A stretch of 27,711 nt of DNA from a virus. Of the stretch, positions 20,349-25,831 are shown piece by piece. The translations under genes and the position numbers were made by a program. The stretch spans positions 1-27,711 of IMG/VR virus record IMGVR_UViG_3300025369_000049, one strand, 5' to 3'. The notes below the pieces were generated by a model. It was not told where the DNA came from, did not search any database, and saw only the letters and a program-made list of their open reading frames with translations. Every line of letters starts with the position of its first letter. Within the stretch, counting starts at the first letter, position 1.

Positions 20349-22145
20349 TTATTGGCCGCGAAGTACAGCGGGGGGGTTATTTGACAACGCGTTGTCGGGT
20401 CCTTGCATTGTTTTATAAGCCAGCATGGCTTTATTAAGATCCGCAAAAAACGCTTGGGGGTCTTGCATTGGAACTGGTTGTCCAGTAATTGGATCCAATT
20501 TGCCTGCCAGTGCTTTTTTCTGGTCAAGATATGCTTGCATTGGGTTTAATTTGCCAGCTTGGATTTCTGTCATTTTTCGCAAGCCGTCTTCAATATCGCC
20601 ATTTTTGCCTAAGAATTGCGCAGATCTAATTGCTTCAGGCGGCAAGTTAGCCAACGCAGCTTTAAAATTAAGTTCCGCTTGTGTGTTTGCAGTTGCGTTT
20701 TGGGCACTGAACATTGTGCGTTTGTTGGCATTAACATCTTGTTGGCTTTGGCTGTAAGCACCGGCTGCAATACCGGCGCCTGCTTGGGCAAAACTGTTTT
20801 GTGCATTAAACGCGTGTTCGTTAAGATTTGACATGGCGTCAAACGCTTTGCTGTTCATTGCCATAGCCGTGTCTTGGTCGTGTACCATCTGGGCCTTGTT
20901 CATGTCATCAATATGCGAATACATGTTACGGCGTTCTTTAGCGGCGGCATCAATTTCTTTAAGGCCTTCTTTATATGCTTTGAGTCCTTCTACACCACCT
21001 TTGCCGATGTTTGCAAAAGCATATGGAGAAGTTCCTTGCATCATGGCTAAACCTGCTTCAGCCAAGCTCATGCCTTTAAGATTGCCAAGTTTGGTGACTT
21101 CTTCTGCTTTTTCTTTATCAAGGTCTTTTTTCAGTTCTTCCCCAAATTTAGGACGCGCGCGCAACATTGCTTCTTGGGCGGTCGTTAAATCATTCAAACG
21201 CCCAACTGTATCGTCGTGCAGTTGTGCTATGCGAGAATCCATTTGAGTTGGATCCAAGAATGTATTAGCCGTGGCTTTGGCTTCAGCAGGAGACAGAGCT
21301 TTTGTGTTTAAACCACCGGGCATTGCCAACTTGGGTGCTTGGATATTGGGCGACCAAGGTGTTGGAGGGGCAGGAGGATTACCGGCTCCAGTACTTGTGT
21401 TTCCTGCGTCTGCATCCGCATTTCCTGTTAAAGATGTATTCAACTGTGTAGGTGTTGGTTGTTCTTGGCCCAACAACTGTGCAATACCGGGAGCTCCAGC
21501 CGCCGCGGTATAGTCTGCAGAACCAATGCGAGAAAACGCTGTTTGTGCTTCTTCTGGACTTTTAAAAACTTGCCCCATCAATGGTTTGTATTTTGGATCC
21601 ATTGGCATGCGGGGGTTGTATGGAAAATCGTAGTAATACTGAGCACCGCCCGGAGCGTGTGGATTTGTAGAAACTAACTGCGGATCAAACGCTCCATTGT
21701 AACGATGCACATCTCCAGTGATTCCACCGCCTGCCATTTTGGTCAAGTTCTGTGCAGGCAAAGCGCCAATACCTGTGTCTTCAGGTAAGCCTTGAGCCAC
21801 TTGTGGTGCGATCTGTGCGGGTGAACCGGGGCCTTGCATGGGCATACCGTTGGGCATATTTGGCCCTGCACCAGCAGGCGCCATCCCTTGTACTGGTATT
21901 GGTCTTGGGGGGGCCATTGAAGCAATGTCTTGATTTGCAACGGTGTTGCTTGGCATTTGCGCAAGAGGTGCACTCATTTTGTTGACTTGCGTTGCCAATG
22001 CTACCATGTTGGTATCATTTGGGTTTTGTGCAAGGTGCTGTTGCACGTATTGTTGTAACGTGCCTTTGGCTTTTTCTGCCGCTAAAACGGCCATTGTGTT
22101 CTGCAAATTTGCAGGTGTGTAAGGAGTGATTGTTGGGCTGTACAT
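20349..22145 (-). CDS. Internal/ejected virion protein, 598 residues
   Basis: A low-complexity phage structural protein. Residues about 60-120 are rich in Pro, Met, Gly and Ala. Residues 124-140 (GIGALPAQNLTKMAGGG) match a short motif widespread in virion proteins of podovirus-like phages. A charged helical region at about 300-400 (LHDDTVGRLNDLTTAQEAML, then FGEELKKDLDKEKAEEVTKL) contains MSLAEAGLAMMQGTSPYAFANIGKG-type sequence that I associate with proteins encoded next to giant polyvalent proteins. The C-terminal part is Ala/Gln/Asn-rich helix. By order it parallels T7 gp15. The start ATG 22145 has AGGAG, formed partly by the upstream stop, a few bases before it, so it is coupled to the gene before it. 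Confidence 0.72.
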   Translation of the reverse strand: MYSPTITPYTPANLQNTMAVLAAEKAKGTLQQYVQQHLAQNPNDTNMVALATQVNKMSAPLAQMPSNTVANQDIASMAPPRPIPVQGMAPAGAGPNMPNGMPMQGPGSPAQIAPQVAQGLPEDTGIGALPAQNLTKMAGGGITGDVHRYNGAFDPQLVSTNPHAPGGAQYYYDFPYNPRMPMDPKYKPLMGQVFKSPEEAQTAFSRIGSADYTAAAGAPGIAQLLGQEQPTPTQLNTSLTGNADADAGNTSTGAGNPPAPPTPWSPNIQAPKLAMPGGLNTKALSPAEAKATANTFLDPTQMDSRIAQLHDDTVGRLNDLTTAQEAMLRARPKFGEELKKDLDKEKAEEVTKLGNLKGMSLAEAGLAMMQGTSPYAFANIGKGGVEGLKAYKEGLKEIDAAAKERRNMYSHIDDMNKAQMVHDQDTAMAMNSKAFDAMSNLNEHAFNAQNSFAQAGAGIAAGAYSQSQQDVNANKRTMFSAQNATANTQAELNFKAALANLPPEAIRSAQFLGKNGDIEDGLRKMTEIQAGKLNPMQAYLDQKKALAGKLDPITGQPVPMQDPQAFFADLNKAMLAYKTMQGPDNALSNNPPAVLRGQ

Positions 22146-22153
22146 GTATGCTC

Positions 22154-23158
22154 CTATGCCAATTTAGACACGGCTAAATCAACTAAACCTCTGGACTTTT
22201 TAATTTCTCCGCCTTTAGCATGACTTTGTAAAGAAGCCAAACCAGCTGCAGTCAATCCAGCCCCTGCAACTTGTGAAAGAACGCTAGGAGGGGCTTGATA
22301 CACCGACGCAGACTGTTGAGTCATTGGCAAACCACGGATCAAGTTGGACATGAAGTTCAGCTGTTGATAAGGGTAGTTCTGTGCGTTTAAGAAATTCTGA
22401 TATTGCGTATTGAGAACATTTTGCTCTTGTTGCTGTTGCTGTCCACCCAGTTGATTTTGTAAACCAATAATCCCAAGGTTTTGGTTATACTGGTTGTTAC
22501 CCAGTGTACCCATTGTGTTGGCAGCAGACAAAGCGGTGTTAAGGCCTTGCATACCCAAGTTAGCACCAAACTGTTGCTGTTGAGCATTCAGTTGATTTTG
22601 GGTGTTATATTGGTTTTGAGCGTTATTGAACGCGGTATTGTAGGCGTTGCCAATCAAATTTTGATTAGCCAATTGGTTATTTAAGTTGGTAGCGGCATTT
22701 TGAACACCAAACCTAGAGCCACCAAACGCACCTGCTTGAGTTGCTTGCGCATTTTGTGTTTGTTGTGCAGCGCCTTGCAATTGCTGTTGGATGGCTAATT
22801 GTGGGGCAAGCGACGCATTCAAATAAGGATTCATCAAACTTTGCGCATCGGCAGTTGAAAAGTTTGAAGGGTTGAATGTGTATTGAGTATTTAATCCACC
22901 AAGCCCCGCTTGACCCGCAAGGGCAGTTCCTTGGCTGAGTTGGGGAGAGGTTTGCATCAACGATGCGTTGTTATATGCTGACTGCTGTAAGGGCGTAAAC
23001 TGCGCCACCTGATCGCCCATATACTGTTGATATGGGTTGGTGTTAATGTCAGTTAAATCCGCCGCATTGCTTAGTAATTGCTGGCCGTATGGAGCAATTT
23101 CAGGCGCAAACCCCGTTTGATATTCGGTTACTGCGGTTGGTGTTGCGGTCGTAGTCAT
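22154..23158 (-). CDS. Gln/Asn-rich virion protein, 334 residues
   Basis: A protein dominated by Gln, Asn, Ala and Gly. Landmarks: PYGQQLLSNAADL (23-35), MNPYLNASLAPQL (109-121), QAGAFGGSRFGVQ (141-153), a Gln run at 239-244, YPYQQLNFMSNLIRGLP (262-278), a hydrophobic Ala/Gly segment (about 294-312), and a C-terminal KGGEIKKSRGLVDLA. The NPYL, AGAFGGSR and YPYQQL..L..G.P series is a pattern I know from structural proteins of podovirus-like phages, usually next to nozzle and internal proteins; the exact role is not known to me. By position it parallels T7 gp14. ATG 23158 has AAGGAA upstream, overlapping the previous stop. Confidence 0.72.
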   Translation of the reverse strand: MTTTATPTAVTEYQTGFAPEIAPYGQQLLSNAADLTDINTNPYQQYMGDQVAQFTPLQQSAYNNASLMQTSPQLSQGTALAGQAGLGGLNTQYTFNPSNFSTADAQSLMNPYLNASLAPQLAIQQQLQGAAQQTQNAQATQAGAFGGSRFGVQNAATNLNNQLANQNLIGNAYNTAFNNAQNQYNTQNQLNAQQQQFGANLGMQGLNTALSAANTMGTLGNNQYNQNLGIIGLQNQLGGQQQQQEQNVLNTQYQNFLNAQNYPYQQLNFMSNLIRGLPMTQQSASVYQAPPSVLSQVAGAGLTAAGLASLQSHAKGGEIKKSRGLVDLAVSKLA

Positions 23159-23167
23159 GATATTTCC

Positions 23168-25831
23168 TTATACGGGAAGGTATTTTGATGCGTTAGTATT
23201 TGTCGCAACGGCATCTCTACCGGTTGTTTTGCGACGGGCATTTTGAATGCGGTCCATCATTTTGTATAGTTGACGAGCGCCTGCTTCAGTTGATCCATTG
23301 CCTAATTCAGAAACGATCCGAGCAGGAACCACAAACTCACCATCAGCAAGGCGAGCAGGCTCAGGGTCGTGAGCGCCAATAGTAGCAGGGATTGAATCCG
23401 AGACGCCATCACCCGGACCCCGAAGCAAACGTCCACCATCTGAGTACCCTCCTAAATGACCAACAGACATTCCGCCAGCTGCAAGACCCATCAATCCTCC
23501 GGTAGCGCCAGATGTTGTGTCACCAGATGAACTGGAATTGCTAGCACCACTTGCGGTACTACCAACCAAAGTTCCGTCGGCATTGTATTTTTTACCATCC
23601 GAGCCAGTAAAAGTGCCATCCCCATTGGGGTACGCCATTACACCGCCGGGCAAAGACTTGTATCCCAAAACAGCTAAAGCGTTGGGATTGGTCAAGCCTG
23701 TTTGTGGAACACCCAAATAATCTTTGGTTGCACTGAACGCGGGGTCATAATTAGGATTAGTTATGTATGTGTGCGTTGTTGGATCGTATATCTGAGGCGT
23801 ATTGACCATGTATTGCGGGCTTAATTTTTGACCCATCAATTGTGCGTAAGGAACCGACACCTGCCCTGTTGGCGTAGTTGGCAACGGGTTCCAAGGCGAC
23901 TTGCCCATCAAGTAGTCATATGCAGCTTTAGAGCCACCGGTTAGGGTGTTGTTGGCCGCATTGAACTCATCCATATTTTTGTATGTTGGGATGGTGTAGC
24001 CTGTACTACCACCGCCAGCTGTATAAGCGTTGTTTACTTCGCTCATGCCTGAGAAACCGCCATAAGGGCGTCCGGGGACATCAGGTGTCACAGTTGTTGT
24101 ACCGTTGGGGTTGTACGTCAAATCGCCCGGATTATTTATATTTCCGTATGGGTTTTTTGTCCCTGCGGGTGCGTTGGTCTGTGGGTTGGTTGGAAGAATT
24201 GTAGATGTTTGGGGTCCGCCACCGCCACCGCCACCGCCACCTCCCGGTGTGTTAATAACATTGGTAATTGTTTTTGTTTGCGGTACTGTTGAAAACTTAC
24301 CTTTAGGATCAACTTGGTTGTATAAGGCCTGAATAGCATCTGGCGTCATGCCCAATGCATTTGCCATTGCAGTAGGATTAACATTCCAGTTATCCATTTC
24401 ATTGGCAATTTGGGTGTTTGCTGTGATGCTATTTGATGTGCCAGAAGGAACGCCAGCAGCCATTTGAGCGGCGTAAACAGCGTTTTTAATATCTGTTGTT
24501 GCGCCTTTTGTTCCCAGTTGAGCATCAAAAGAAGATACGTTTGGTTGAGTTGGACTTGCTAAACTTTGCGCTGAATATGGGTTAATTCCAGAAGCAAGGA
24601 ACTTCTGCACAGCAGCAGGGTCAGCATTTGTTGCTTGCTCGGCAGCTGCTAAAGCTGCGGGGTTACTTGTATCAATACCTTGTTGTTGAATATATTGCGC
24701 CATTTGCTGGTCGGAATAATTTGTATAAGCGGGCGCTAAAGCGGCAACACCGGCAGGAGCTCCAGCTCCAACAGCGGGCCCAGCTCCAACATTTGCGGCT
24801 TCTTGCGCTGCTATTTGAGCGCCTTGTCCTCCCGGTTGGAAAAAAGAAGCACTAATTTGTGGAGCCGCTGGAGCACTTTGCGAAGCCAAAGCGGCTTGTA
24901 CTTGAGCATCTGATACACCGTACTGTTGTTCAGCGGCTGTAAGAGCATCTCCAGATAAGTTATTGCTGGTAACGTAGTTTGCAATCTGTTCGTTTGTATA
25001 CGCAGGTGCAGCAGCCGCAACATCGCCACCATCGTCGTAATGATGCACGCCACCACCTTGAGCCAAAGCAACAAGACCGCCAGTAGCGGCAGCGGGAGCC
25101 ATTCCTTGATGTGTATATCCACCCATAGGCGAATAGCTGCTGTACCTAATGAACTGCGTGTTAGGTGTATTAGGCATATTTAGCTTTTGCGGTTGAGCGG
25201 CCGCCTTTAAAAGACCAATACCGCCCGCTCCGATTGCGGCTTGCTCGTACCAAGGCAAACCCGTGAATTTATCAAATAAACTTTTACCAGTACTTGAGGC
25301 TCCAGCTGTACTAGCTGCGCCTGGCATTGGGGTTGTTGGTTGAACTGTACCTGGTAGGCTTGCTGCATTTGCTTGTGCGCCAGTCATCACTTGCGTAGGC
25401 GCTTCGGTCATAGAAGGAGTGGGAGCTTTACCAACAGGAGCTTCTTCAATCTCCTGATAATTACCGGCGCTTGAAGCACCAGCCGCAACATTTGAACTTC
25501 CAATTCCAGAACTGTAATTTCCCATCCCCAAGCCTTCGCCAAGACTTGCGCCTCCATACCCTGCCATACCCGCCATCAAACCTTGAGCCAAATTTCCTGA
25601 AGCAAGACCTGCAATTCCACCAGTCACAAGCGCTGCGTTTCCTGCCGCTCCTAATCCAGCATCAAATAACCCGCCACTGCCAACAAGCTCACCAGCTCCA
25701 CCAGTAAAATAATCCAAAGCCGCAGCTGCCGCCATATCTACCAATGGATTTTTGGTGGCGTTGGCAATGCCTTTTCCAAGGTCATGAATGCCGCCGGATA
25801 TATTTGCTATTGGGTTTGAAAAGAAGCTCAT
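23168..25831 (-). CDS. Ala/Gly-rich virion protein with helical repeats, 887 residues
   Basis: A large structural protein. Residues about 30-105 are Gly/Ala-rich and hydrophobic with zipper-like spacing, suggesting membrane contact. Residues 251-269 (GGLVALAQGGGVHHYDDGG) carry a GG motif. Three degenerate helical repeats follow at about 277-316 (YTNEQIANYV...), 368-413 (YTNYSDQQMAQYI...) and 470-506. A ten-Gly linker (530-539) leads to an Asn/Gly/Thr-rich part. Near the C-terminus are RLLRGPGDGVSDSIPA and LADGEFVVPARIVSELGNGS, a strongly recognisable phage virion motif. ATG 25831 has GGAG upstream. By order it could be an ejected or tail-core protein; the exact role is unassigned. Confidence 0.75.
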   Translation of the reverse strand: MSFFSNPIANISGGIHDLGKGIANATKNPLVDMAAAAALDYFTGGAGELVGSGGLFDAGLGAAGNAALVTGGIAGLASGNLAQGLMAGMAGYGGASLGEGLGMGNYSSGIGSSNVAAGASSAGNYQEIEEAPVGKAPTPSMTEAPTQVMTGAQANAASLPGTVQPTTPMPGAASTAGASSTGKSLFDKFTGLPWYEQAAIGAGGIGLLKAAAQPQKLNMPNTPNTQFIRYSSYSPMGGYTHQGMAPAAATGGLVALAQGGGVHHYDDGGDVAAAAPAYTNEQIANYVTSNNLSGDALTAAEQQYGVSDAQVQAALASQSAPAAPQISASFFQPGGQGAQIAAQEAANVGAGPAVGAGAPAGVAALAPAYTNYSDQQMAQYIQQQGIDTSNPAALAAAEQATNADPAAVQKFLASGINPYSAQSLASPTQPNVSSFDAQLGTKGATTDIKNAVYAAQMAAGVPSGTSNSITANTQIANEMDNWNVNPTAMANALGMTPDAIQALYNQVDPKGKFSTVPQTKTITNVINTPGGGGGGGGGGPQTSTILPTNPQTNAPAGTKNPYGNINNPGDLTYNPNGTTTVTPDVPGRPYGGFSGMSEVNNAYTAGGGSTGYTIPTYKNMDEFNAANNTLTGGSKAAYDYLMGKSPWNPLPTTPTGQVSVPYAQLMGQKLSPQYMVNTPQIYDPTTHTYITNPNYDPAFSATKDYLGVPQTGLTNPNALAVLGYKSLPGGVMAYPNGDGTFTGSDGKKYNADGTLVGSTASGASNSSSSGDTTSGATGGLMGLAAGGMSVGHLGGYSDGGRLLRGPGDGVSDSIPATIGAHDPEPARLADGEFVVPARIVSELGNGSTEAGARQLYKMMDRIQNARRKTTGRDAVATNTNASKYLPV
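24216..24245. repeat. Hexanucleotide repeat encoding a Gly-10 linker
   Basis: Three perfect ACCGCC units (24221-24238), flanked by CCGCC and ACCTCC, encode ten consecutive glycines on the minus strand in the 887-residue virion protein. Such a run can change length by slippage in steps of two residues. Confidence 0.75.

Follow-up and report, generated by a model that had tools for sequence, protein, structure and literature searches.

A short peptide of the form [FYLM]-A-x-G-G is a real, conserved linear protein motif that recurs in three neighbouring late proteins of a virus and their relatives. In judging the sequences of its carriers, we find that the most likely reading, at a probability of roughly 0.43, is that ejected proteins use it as a peptide for docking or loading. 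The choice of proteins for loading and injection is, to our knowledge, understood for no more than a few model phages. Injected proteins could become easier to predict from sequence with the help of a short motif carried by several unrelated late proteins. Furthermore, the motif ties the ejection proteins of short-tailed phages to tape measure proteins.

The source record of the virus has 27,711 bases, and we refer to this whole stretch as the window. All motif carriers are encoded on its minus strand (Table 1), where the genes read in the order p477, a 111-aa protein (p111), p887, p334, p598 and a giant protein of 3150 aa. The product of p477, located near the window end and comprising 477 aa counted from the first start codon, is of the nozzle/stabilization type; it matches PHROG 3287 ('virion structural protein') and 162 phage records. 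No head gene was recognised in the 27.7 kb record and no tail tube gene in the window. Only p334 is homologous to a known family of DNA ejection proteins (PHROG 4287), and the PHROG match of p598 is at chance level. A Pfam search of p598, p334 and p887 gave nothing at the curated cut-off, and tblastn against 50,697 phage records at E 1e-5 returned none for p334 and p598 and three records for p887. There was also no match for a piece of the p598 N-domain used as query, and searching the PDB sequences with either the profile of p334 or the C-terminus of p887 gave no hit.

Table 1. Coordinates of the proteins, motif copies and C-terminal module in the window.
Feature	Position	Strand	Remarks
p598, 598 aa	20349..22145	-	family of unknown function, adjoins ejection protein
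p334, 334 aa	22154..23158	-	relative of PHROG 4287 'DNA ejection protein', E 2.1e-13
p887, 887 aa	23168..25831	-	low-complexity; tandem A.GG; tape-measure-type C-terminal module
Giant protein, 3150 aa	10856..20308	-	LPD38 (Pfam E 1.7e-31); one HExxH; no A.GG
MAGGG, residues 137-141 of p598, within LPEDTGIGALPAQNLTKMAGGGITG	21723..21737	-	A138, G140, G141 and I142 invariant in 22 aligned sequences
HAKGG, residues 313-317 of p334, about 20 residues from the C-terminus	22208..22222	-	G316 and G317 in 31/31, A in 30/31
AATGG, residues 248-252 of p887, tandem pair copy 1	25076..25090	-	GG251 in 32/33
LAQGG, residues 256-260 of p887, tandem pair copy 2, followed by GVHHYDDGG	25052..25066	-	GG259 in 30/33
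GATGG, residues 775-779 of p887	23495..23509	-	GG778 in 33/33
LAAGG, residues 783-787 of p887	23471..23485	-	GG786 in 31/33, A in 32/33; AF2 pLDDT <50 region
C-terminal module YSDGGRLLRGPGDGVSDSIPA...GEFVVPARIVSELGNG...MMDRIQNAR, residues 796-866 of p887	23234..23446	-	common to tape measure proteins

The same gene order is found in DSL-LC04, which has a stabilization protein, two more genes, a 'tail tape measure', a 294-aa protein, a 645-aa protein and a 'DNA transfer protein'; we identified its p334 and p598 counterparts from their position and by eye. In the more distant phiM5, whose gene position the p334 region resembles, the p477 homologue and a tailspike gene are followed by three genes whose products carry the annotation internal virion protein and have been detected in the particle. 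Judging from family (PHROG 4287 for p334) and gene order, p887, p334 and p598 are probably internal, ejected proteins.

An earlier note on this DNA had quoted four strings as copies of one motif in three neighbouring virion proteins, and all four are present: M137-AGGG in p598, H313-AKGG in p334, and L256-AQGG and L783-AAGG in p887. The form given there, with a small or hydrophobic residue before A and a hydrophobic one after the glycines, suits the p334 copy poorly, as H precedes A and E follows GG. The consensus is [FYLM]-A-x-G-G, after which there is often a hydrophobic residue, G or S and then often V, I, A or L: an M, L, Y or F is followed by A, a freely varying residue, GG and mostly I, G, M, S, V or L. 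In the window alone, the motif is not clearly beyond chance. Compared to 2000 composition-preserving shuffles, A.GG occurs twice in p598 (0.65 expected, P 0.14), twice in p334 (0.36 expected, P 0.05) and five times in p887 (2.87 expected, P 0.15); if GG must be followed by G or a hydrophobic residue, P becomes 0.046, 1.0 and 0.067, respectively.

Relatives were collected by a p334 search, from which 80 viral loci were kept; of its six seed peptides, one included the motif. Near copies are common among the loci, and sequences were dereplicated at 80-90% identity. The pattern [FYLMV]A.GG then occurs 53 times in 24 p598 sequences (3.9 expected; present in 24/24), 215 times in 59 p887 sequences (29.7 expected; 59/59) and 21 times in 34 p334 sequences (4.8 expected; 21/34). 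The maxima over 200 shuffles are 11, 47 and 10, respectively, all below the observed counts. Thus, the excess over chance holds in each family and is not clear in the window alone. With [FYLM][ADS].GG, counted in families with at least four dereplicated members, the joint p887/p598 cluster has 397 copies vs 52.8 expected and p334 has 41 vs 9.5, and no excess is seen in the p477 family (0 vs 8.4), p111 (0 vs 0.6) and the giants (4 vs 6.8). Likewise, a survey of families with at least five dereplicated members or an excess >1.5, with loci L001 and L203-L209 left out, found no motif in 54 sequences of the nozzle/stabilization (p477) family (4.7 expected) and none in 48 sequences of the p111 family (1.0 expected). 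Since loci L083-L200 were fetched by motif pattern, there is some circularity in the survey totals for p598, p887 and p334; the shuffle tests with [FYLM][ADS].GG and [FYLMV]A.GG and the conservation of GG pairs are less biased.

This conservation was assessed in alignments of 31 p334, 22 p598 and 33 p887 sequences. The motif positions are conserved in homologues: the GG pairs are kept in 31/31, 22/22 and 30-33/33 sequences, respectively, and most other pairs drift. For p598, where mean column identity in the family alignment is 27%, both GG140 and its A are found in 22/22, vs 2/22 for GG166, 1/22 for GG277 and 4/22 for GG383. Other pairs are kept in 2/31 (GG87) and 14/31 (GG238) for p334, and most of those in p887 in 1-14/33. 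Also conserved outside the quoted motifs are GG146 of p334, itself A-F-GG, and GG71, GG93 (A-Y-GG in most relatives), GG591, GG606/607 and GG799 of p887. Downstream of GG in p334, G324 is invariant and L325 and L328 are present in at least 90% of the sequences (FAKGGSVDERPAGLADLAIYNMG type). Copies in p887 are often paired, and the commonest spacing of successive [FYLMV]A.GG is 8 residues (55 cases). Charged residues flank many copies (MADGGIAGYEDD, YAKGGQVEDTTDK), and some copies are hydrophobic (e.g. MAGGGIVALAGGG). For this comparison of copies, rows that repeated a tail or a motif set were dropped. The motif surroundings are probably disordered according to AF2, which gives p334 a mean pLDDT of 51 with values <50 at the motif and is similarly unconfident at the C-terminal motifs of p887 (pLDDT <50).

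When the profiles of the three families are compared in full length, no pair can be aligned (hhalign Prob 0.35, 2.6 and 0.37), and we thus rejected the idea that p598, p334 and p887 descend as a whole from one ancestor. For p334 with p598 and for p598 with p887, the best local alignment lands on the motif itself, not significantly. Synonymous codons vary at the A, G and G of the motif; thus, we are dealing with a protein motif where selection acts on the peptide, and a DNA-level element was rejected. The cassette EPV[VMIL][RS]M[AS].GG is found in 45 of 96 ORFs labelled p598 and in 14 of 171 labelled p887, so that local exchange is likely, and part of the motif sharing may be recent exchange. 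Single-linkage BLAST clustering put p598, p887 and, in one run, p334 into one cluster; this joining probably arises through fusions and shared cassettes. Fusions of the p887 module with the p334 domain occur in two loci (L094, by BLAST and HMM; L110, where the p334 part was recognised by eye), and p334 is fused to a p598-like part, recognised by eye, in four (L075, L077, L116 and L148). Such fusions of neighbouring ejection-type genes suggest that the products work in one complex.

The tag proved to be shared more widely than by three neighbouring proteins. A PcfJ-like protein was found in 13 loci: all nine members with an intact N-terminus have three to four copies of [FYLM][AS].GG, mostly near the N-terminus, and four are truncated. 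In 10/10 members of a 100-114-aa protein, the motif is found 24 residues before the C-terminus as YAKGGLVTS. Three long proteins (1,799-2,269 aa) all have YAKGGQV or YAEGGVV 20-21 residues before theirs. In DSL-LC04 (48.5 of 61.5 kb), eight copies are present in 73 ORFs vs 1.86 expected; they sit in four proteins, two of which are the p598- and p887-like ones. The p887 and p598 counterparts of DSL-LC04 and Pag-Yong1 (Planktothrix phage) have YAEGG, FANGG, YADGG or MANGG, and the p334 counterparts of both phages have no C-terminal copy. A degenerate DNA pattern for MA.GGI[VA][AG][LYF]A.GG gave at least 120 matches in at least 118 loci of viral contigs. Each of the 120 matches listed falls within an open frame no shorter than 182 aa, and the best BLAST hit is to one of the three families for 87, weak for 18 and absent for 15. 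In 84,980 cellular genomes, the same pattern hit only one phage-like contig and one Rhs-like protein; the latter looks like a chance match. An 81-aa joined motif query retrieved only two records of one Gordonia phage (E 8).

Several phages and proteins speak against a general occurrence of the tag. We found no [FYLM]A.GG in gp7, gp20 and gp16 of P22 or in gp14, gp15 and gp16 of T7, with plain A.GG occurring three times in P22 gp7 and once in T7 gp16. The motif is present in none of six proteins examined in HTVC023P, in one of eight in CRP-901 (a fibre), and in none of the three internal virion proteins of phiM5, where one copy is found instead in the p477 homologue. HTVC104P (49.9 of 54.4 kb, 71 ORFs) shows no excess, with one copy vs 1.40 expected; this copy is N-terminal, in gp81. 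HTVC027P gp82 and gene 66 of the Caulobacter phage RW have one copy each. Such single copies elsewhere may be chance. The window's giant protein, which is also likely injected, contains no A.GG.

The link to tape measure proteins comes from the C-terminal module of p887. Tape measure proteins as such are long and coiled-coil and set the length of the tail, with tail tube genes next to them; in the window, the neighbour is of the nozzle/stabilization type. The tape measure module of long-tailed phages reads 'FA.GG.V.GPGTGTSDSIPA.LS.GEfV', and p887 ends in the same module and also has the signature GPG(T/D)G.SD.IPA ... GEF/YV. Alignment of the p887 module to five tape measure segments by hhalign gave Prob 98.4 and E 7e-15; these segments had been picked with a typed consensus query that contained A.GG, and this query was not used for the claim on A.GG. 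An HMM of p887 relatives, which is independent of the typed consensus, recovered two of the five segments (E 2e-3) and the DSL-LC04 protein (E 8e-8), and the module HMM hit 173 loci. A 31-aa query without A.GG matched 1352 phage records, and 33 of 40 evenly stepped rows are annotated as tape measure proteins. Among 12 hits chosen for diversity from these 40, the region upstream of the module has [FYLM][AS].GG in seven, A-x-GG in nine and neither in three; A-x-GG just upstream of the module is thus frequent in tape measure proteins. At the exact upstream position, p887 differs, as it has YSDGG there, with the closest A-x-GG, LAAGG, placed another 13 residues upstream; accordingly, GG799 is kept in 33/33 sequences with no A two residues before. 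Furthermore, the p887 module has a longer stretch from SDSIPA to GEFV and an added LGNGS..LY.MM region. Pfam assigns no family to p887, whose end matches the widespread GPGTGTSDSIPA...GEFV module.

The AF2 model of the p887 module shows a short beta hairpin and two helices (pLDDT ~84-87, residues 71-100 of the segment). Foldseek found no hit to this module in the PDB and one with E <0.001 in BFVD, an uncharacterized protein of an uncultured phage. In the tape measure protein of JBD30, the module lies at residues 1018-1051. The authors of that structure predict that residues 1022-1066 fold into a hook made up of a short hairpin and two helices, and they propose a cut at 1066 (PMC11445458). The built residues described are the 33 C-terminal ones in JBD30 and 1,658-1,699 in Douge. 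As the module region is resolved in neither of these, we infer the anchoring role: the C-terminal module of p887 may be an anchor or 'hook'.

How could the motif act? If the carriers are late proteins that reside inside the virion and are ejected with the DNA, each copy, placed in a low-confidence stretch or near a protein end, could be a ligand peptide for a common virion partner. Candidate partners would be the lumen of the portal or nozzle, an internal core or scaffold, and other ejection proteins. Docking would then load or hold the carriers such that they exit in order and a conduit is built or anchored, and the last copies of p887 would be placed shortly upstream of the putative hook. 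We favour a docking peptide because copies are in tandem, the A is strict and has a hydrophobic flank, and downstream residues are conserved. The motif could instead be a structural element, that is, a Phi-A-x-G-G-Phi turn, helix cap or flexible hinge, which would be favoured in proteins that must unfold and thread the portal channel, with convergent copies and no partner. Its spacing and composition fit the glycine C-cap rule (a Schellman-type helix-terminating turn), the residue between A and GG is free to vary, and the motif lies in regions of low AF2 confidence. However, a hinge should have no need for an A as strictly kept as this one (22/22 p598 and 30/31 p334 sequences) when the majority of the other GG pairs drift, the 8-residue spacing of tandem copies leaves little space for an intervening helix, and the ejection proteins of P22 and T7, which are also threaded, are without [FYLM]A.GG. 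We rank this explanation next after docking and consider it possible, if rather unlikely. Accidental A-x-GG in Gly/Ala-rich proteins would fit the window-only counts, which are not clearly significant; yet the shuffle excess and the positional conservation in relatives refute this for the families taken together, and we give it hardly any weight. It is also very unlikely that glycine-rich hydrophobic copies insert into or bind the envelope during conduit formation. Hydrophobic copies would suit such a role, and a glycine zipper is described as needed for the translocation of a secreted protein (PMC10240207), whereas many copies are charge-flanked and others are found in the PcfJ-like protein. 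Glycine-zipper membrane helices were rejected as the main reading; the hits in L142 and L201 look like such helices.

The earlier note had offered, besides a docking tag, a site at which the giant protein's peptidase would process the carriers. The docking half fits best with the conserved positions in families that do not align as wholes, the tandem copies, the low-confidence surroundings and the conserved sequence downstream in p334. For the peptidase half, we looked at the giant: it has a single HExxH, at residue 2174, and no Pfam peptidase match at E 0.1. Among closed giant-type ORFs >1500 aa of motif-bearing loci, HExxH is present in 10/14 and absent in 4/14, the latter coming from loci fetched by the motif; thus, motif and HExxH usually, not always, co-occur. 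Direct support for cleavage by this peptidase was not found, yet such cleavage may occur. An HExxH count of 11/32 is of little use here, as many of the ORFs counted extend beyond the end of their locus. That the giant itself has no A.GG says little about its cutting other proteins. More generally, a phage or host protease could cut at or beside GG during assembly. The tape measure proteins of T5 and lambda are described as cut during morphogenesis (PMC10038345), P1 DdrB is reported in the consulted text to be processed before packaging, and polyvalent proteins are stated to often carry zincin peptidases (PMC5512222), so that processing by polyvalent-type peptidases in general is plausible. P22 gp7 loses 20 residues to host OpdA according to its sequence record annotation, A-x-GG or close variants were seen by eye near the junction of the p334/p598 fusions, and the 10/14 giant-type ORFs with HExxH also agree with cutting. 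Against it stand the tandem copies, the conserved sequence after GG in p334, the four HExxH-less ORFs from loci that carry the motif, and the mapped T5 cut, which is described as following an arginine, R1127 (PMC10038345). We therefore place processing third, after the hinge, and regard it as improbable.

Returning to docking, a close known counterpart is a tag that sorts internal proteins in T4. The T4 capsid targeting sequence is N-terminal, directs a foreign protein into the head and is removed by the prohead protease. It is described as a short peptide common to diverse packaged internal proteins (PMC3012670). The likeness would lie in a short peptide common to families that do not align as wholes, provided that our carriers are packaged too. 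Unlike in T4, the copies in p598, p334, most of p887 and the C-terminal carriers are internal or C-terminal and often in tandem, with no link to a prohead protease seen; exceptions with N-terminal copies are the PcfJ-like protein and HTVC104P gp81. We therefore do not class the motif as a capsid targeting sequence of the T4 type. Compared to the P22/T7-type ejection proteins, p334 is close in being near PHROG 4287, and the difference is that those proteins lack [FYLM]A.GG. Polyvalent proteins are touched on as well, since the neighbouring giant carries LPD38, listed as a phage-type polyvalent domain (PMC5512222); it is the PcfJ-like protein of DSL-LC04 relatives that has the motif, and the window's LPD38 giant does not. 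In the available text of the polyvalent-protein paper (PMC5512222), PcfJ has 0 occurrences. Our searches of the open-access literature in PMC found no such motif named in the text covered, which is no proof of its being unpublished. It is conceivable, though doubtful, that [FYLM]-A-x-G-G is a general sorting code, where one virion site recognises the tag on injected phage proteins; the tag would then act much as the T4 capsid targeting sequence does for internal proteins. We are equally hesitant about the scope of such a code, which might extend to ejection, tape measure, PcfJ-like polyvalent and small late proteins, with any tagged protein delivered along with the DNA.

Lastly, we note some features of the carriers and their surroundings. 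Many p887 relatives and DSL-LC04 (the p887-like protein of L204; A3 consensus) have a GRG.DS.L.HMTP.EV...TINP.TGLPEAG-like stretch, and the p887 of the window is without it. The PcfJ-like protein of DSL-LC04 (L210:10344-12821) and its relatives is encoded between the portal and terminase genes and has three A.GG copies on its N-terminal side. The 100-114-aa protein is encoded near the portal gene (L210:7313-7657; L213-L219, L221 and L223), and its C-terminus, YAKGGLVTS(K/R)GQG(R/K)V(I/V)RSKKTRIC, is almost invariant in the 10 members. The 1,799-2,269-aa proteins of L103, L109 and L171 terminate in YAKGGQVEDTTDKLLRIIGGS or close variants.
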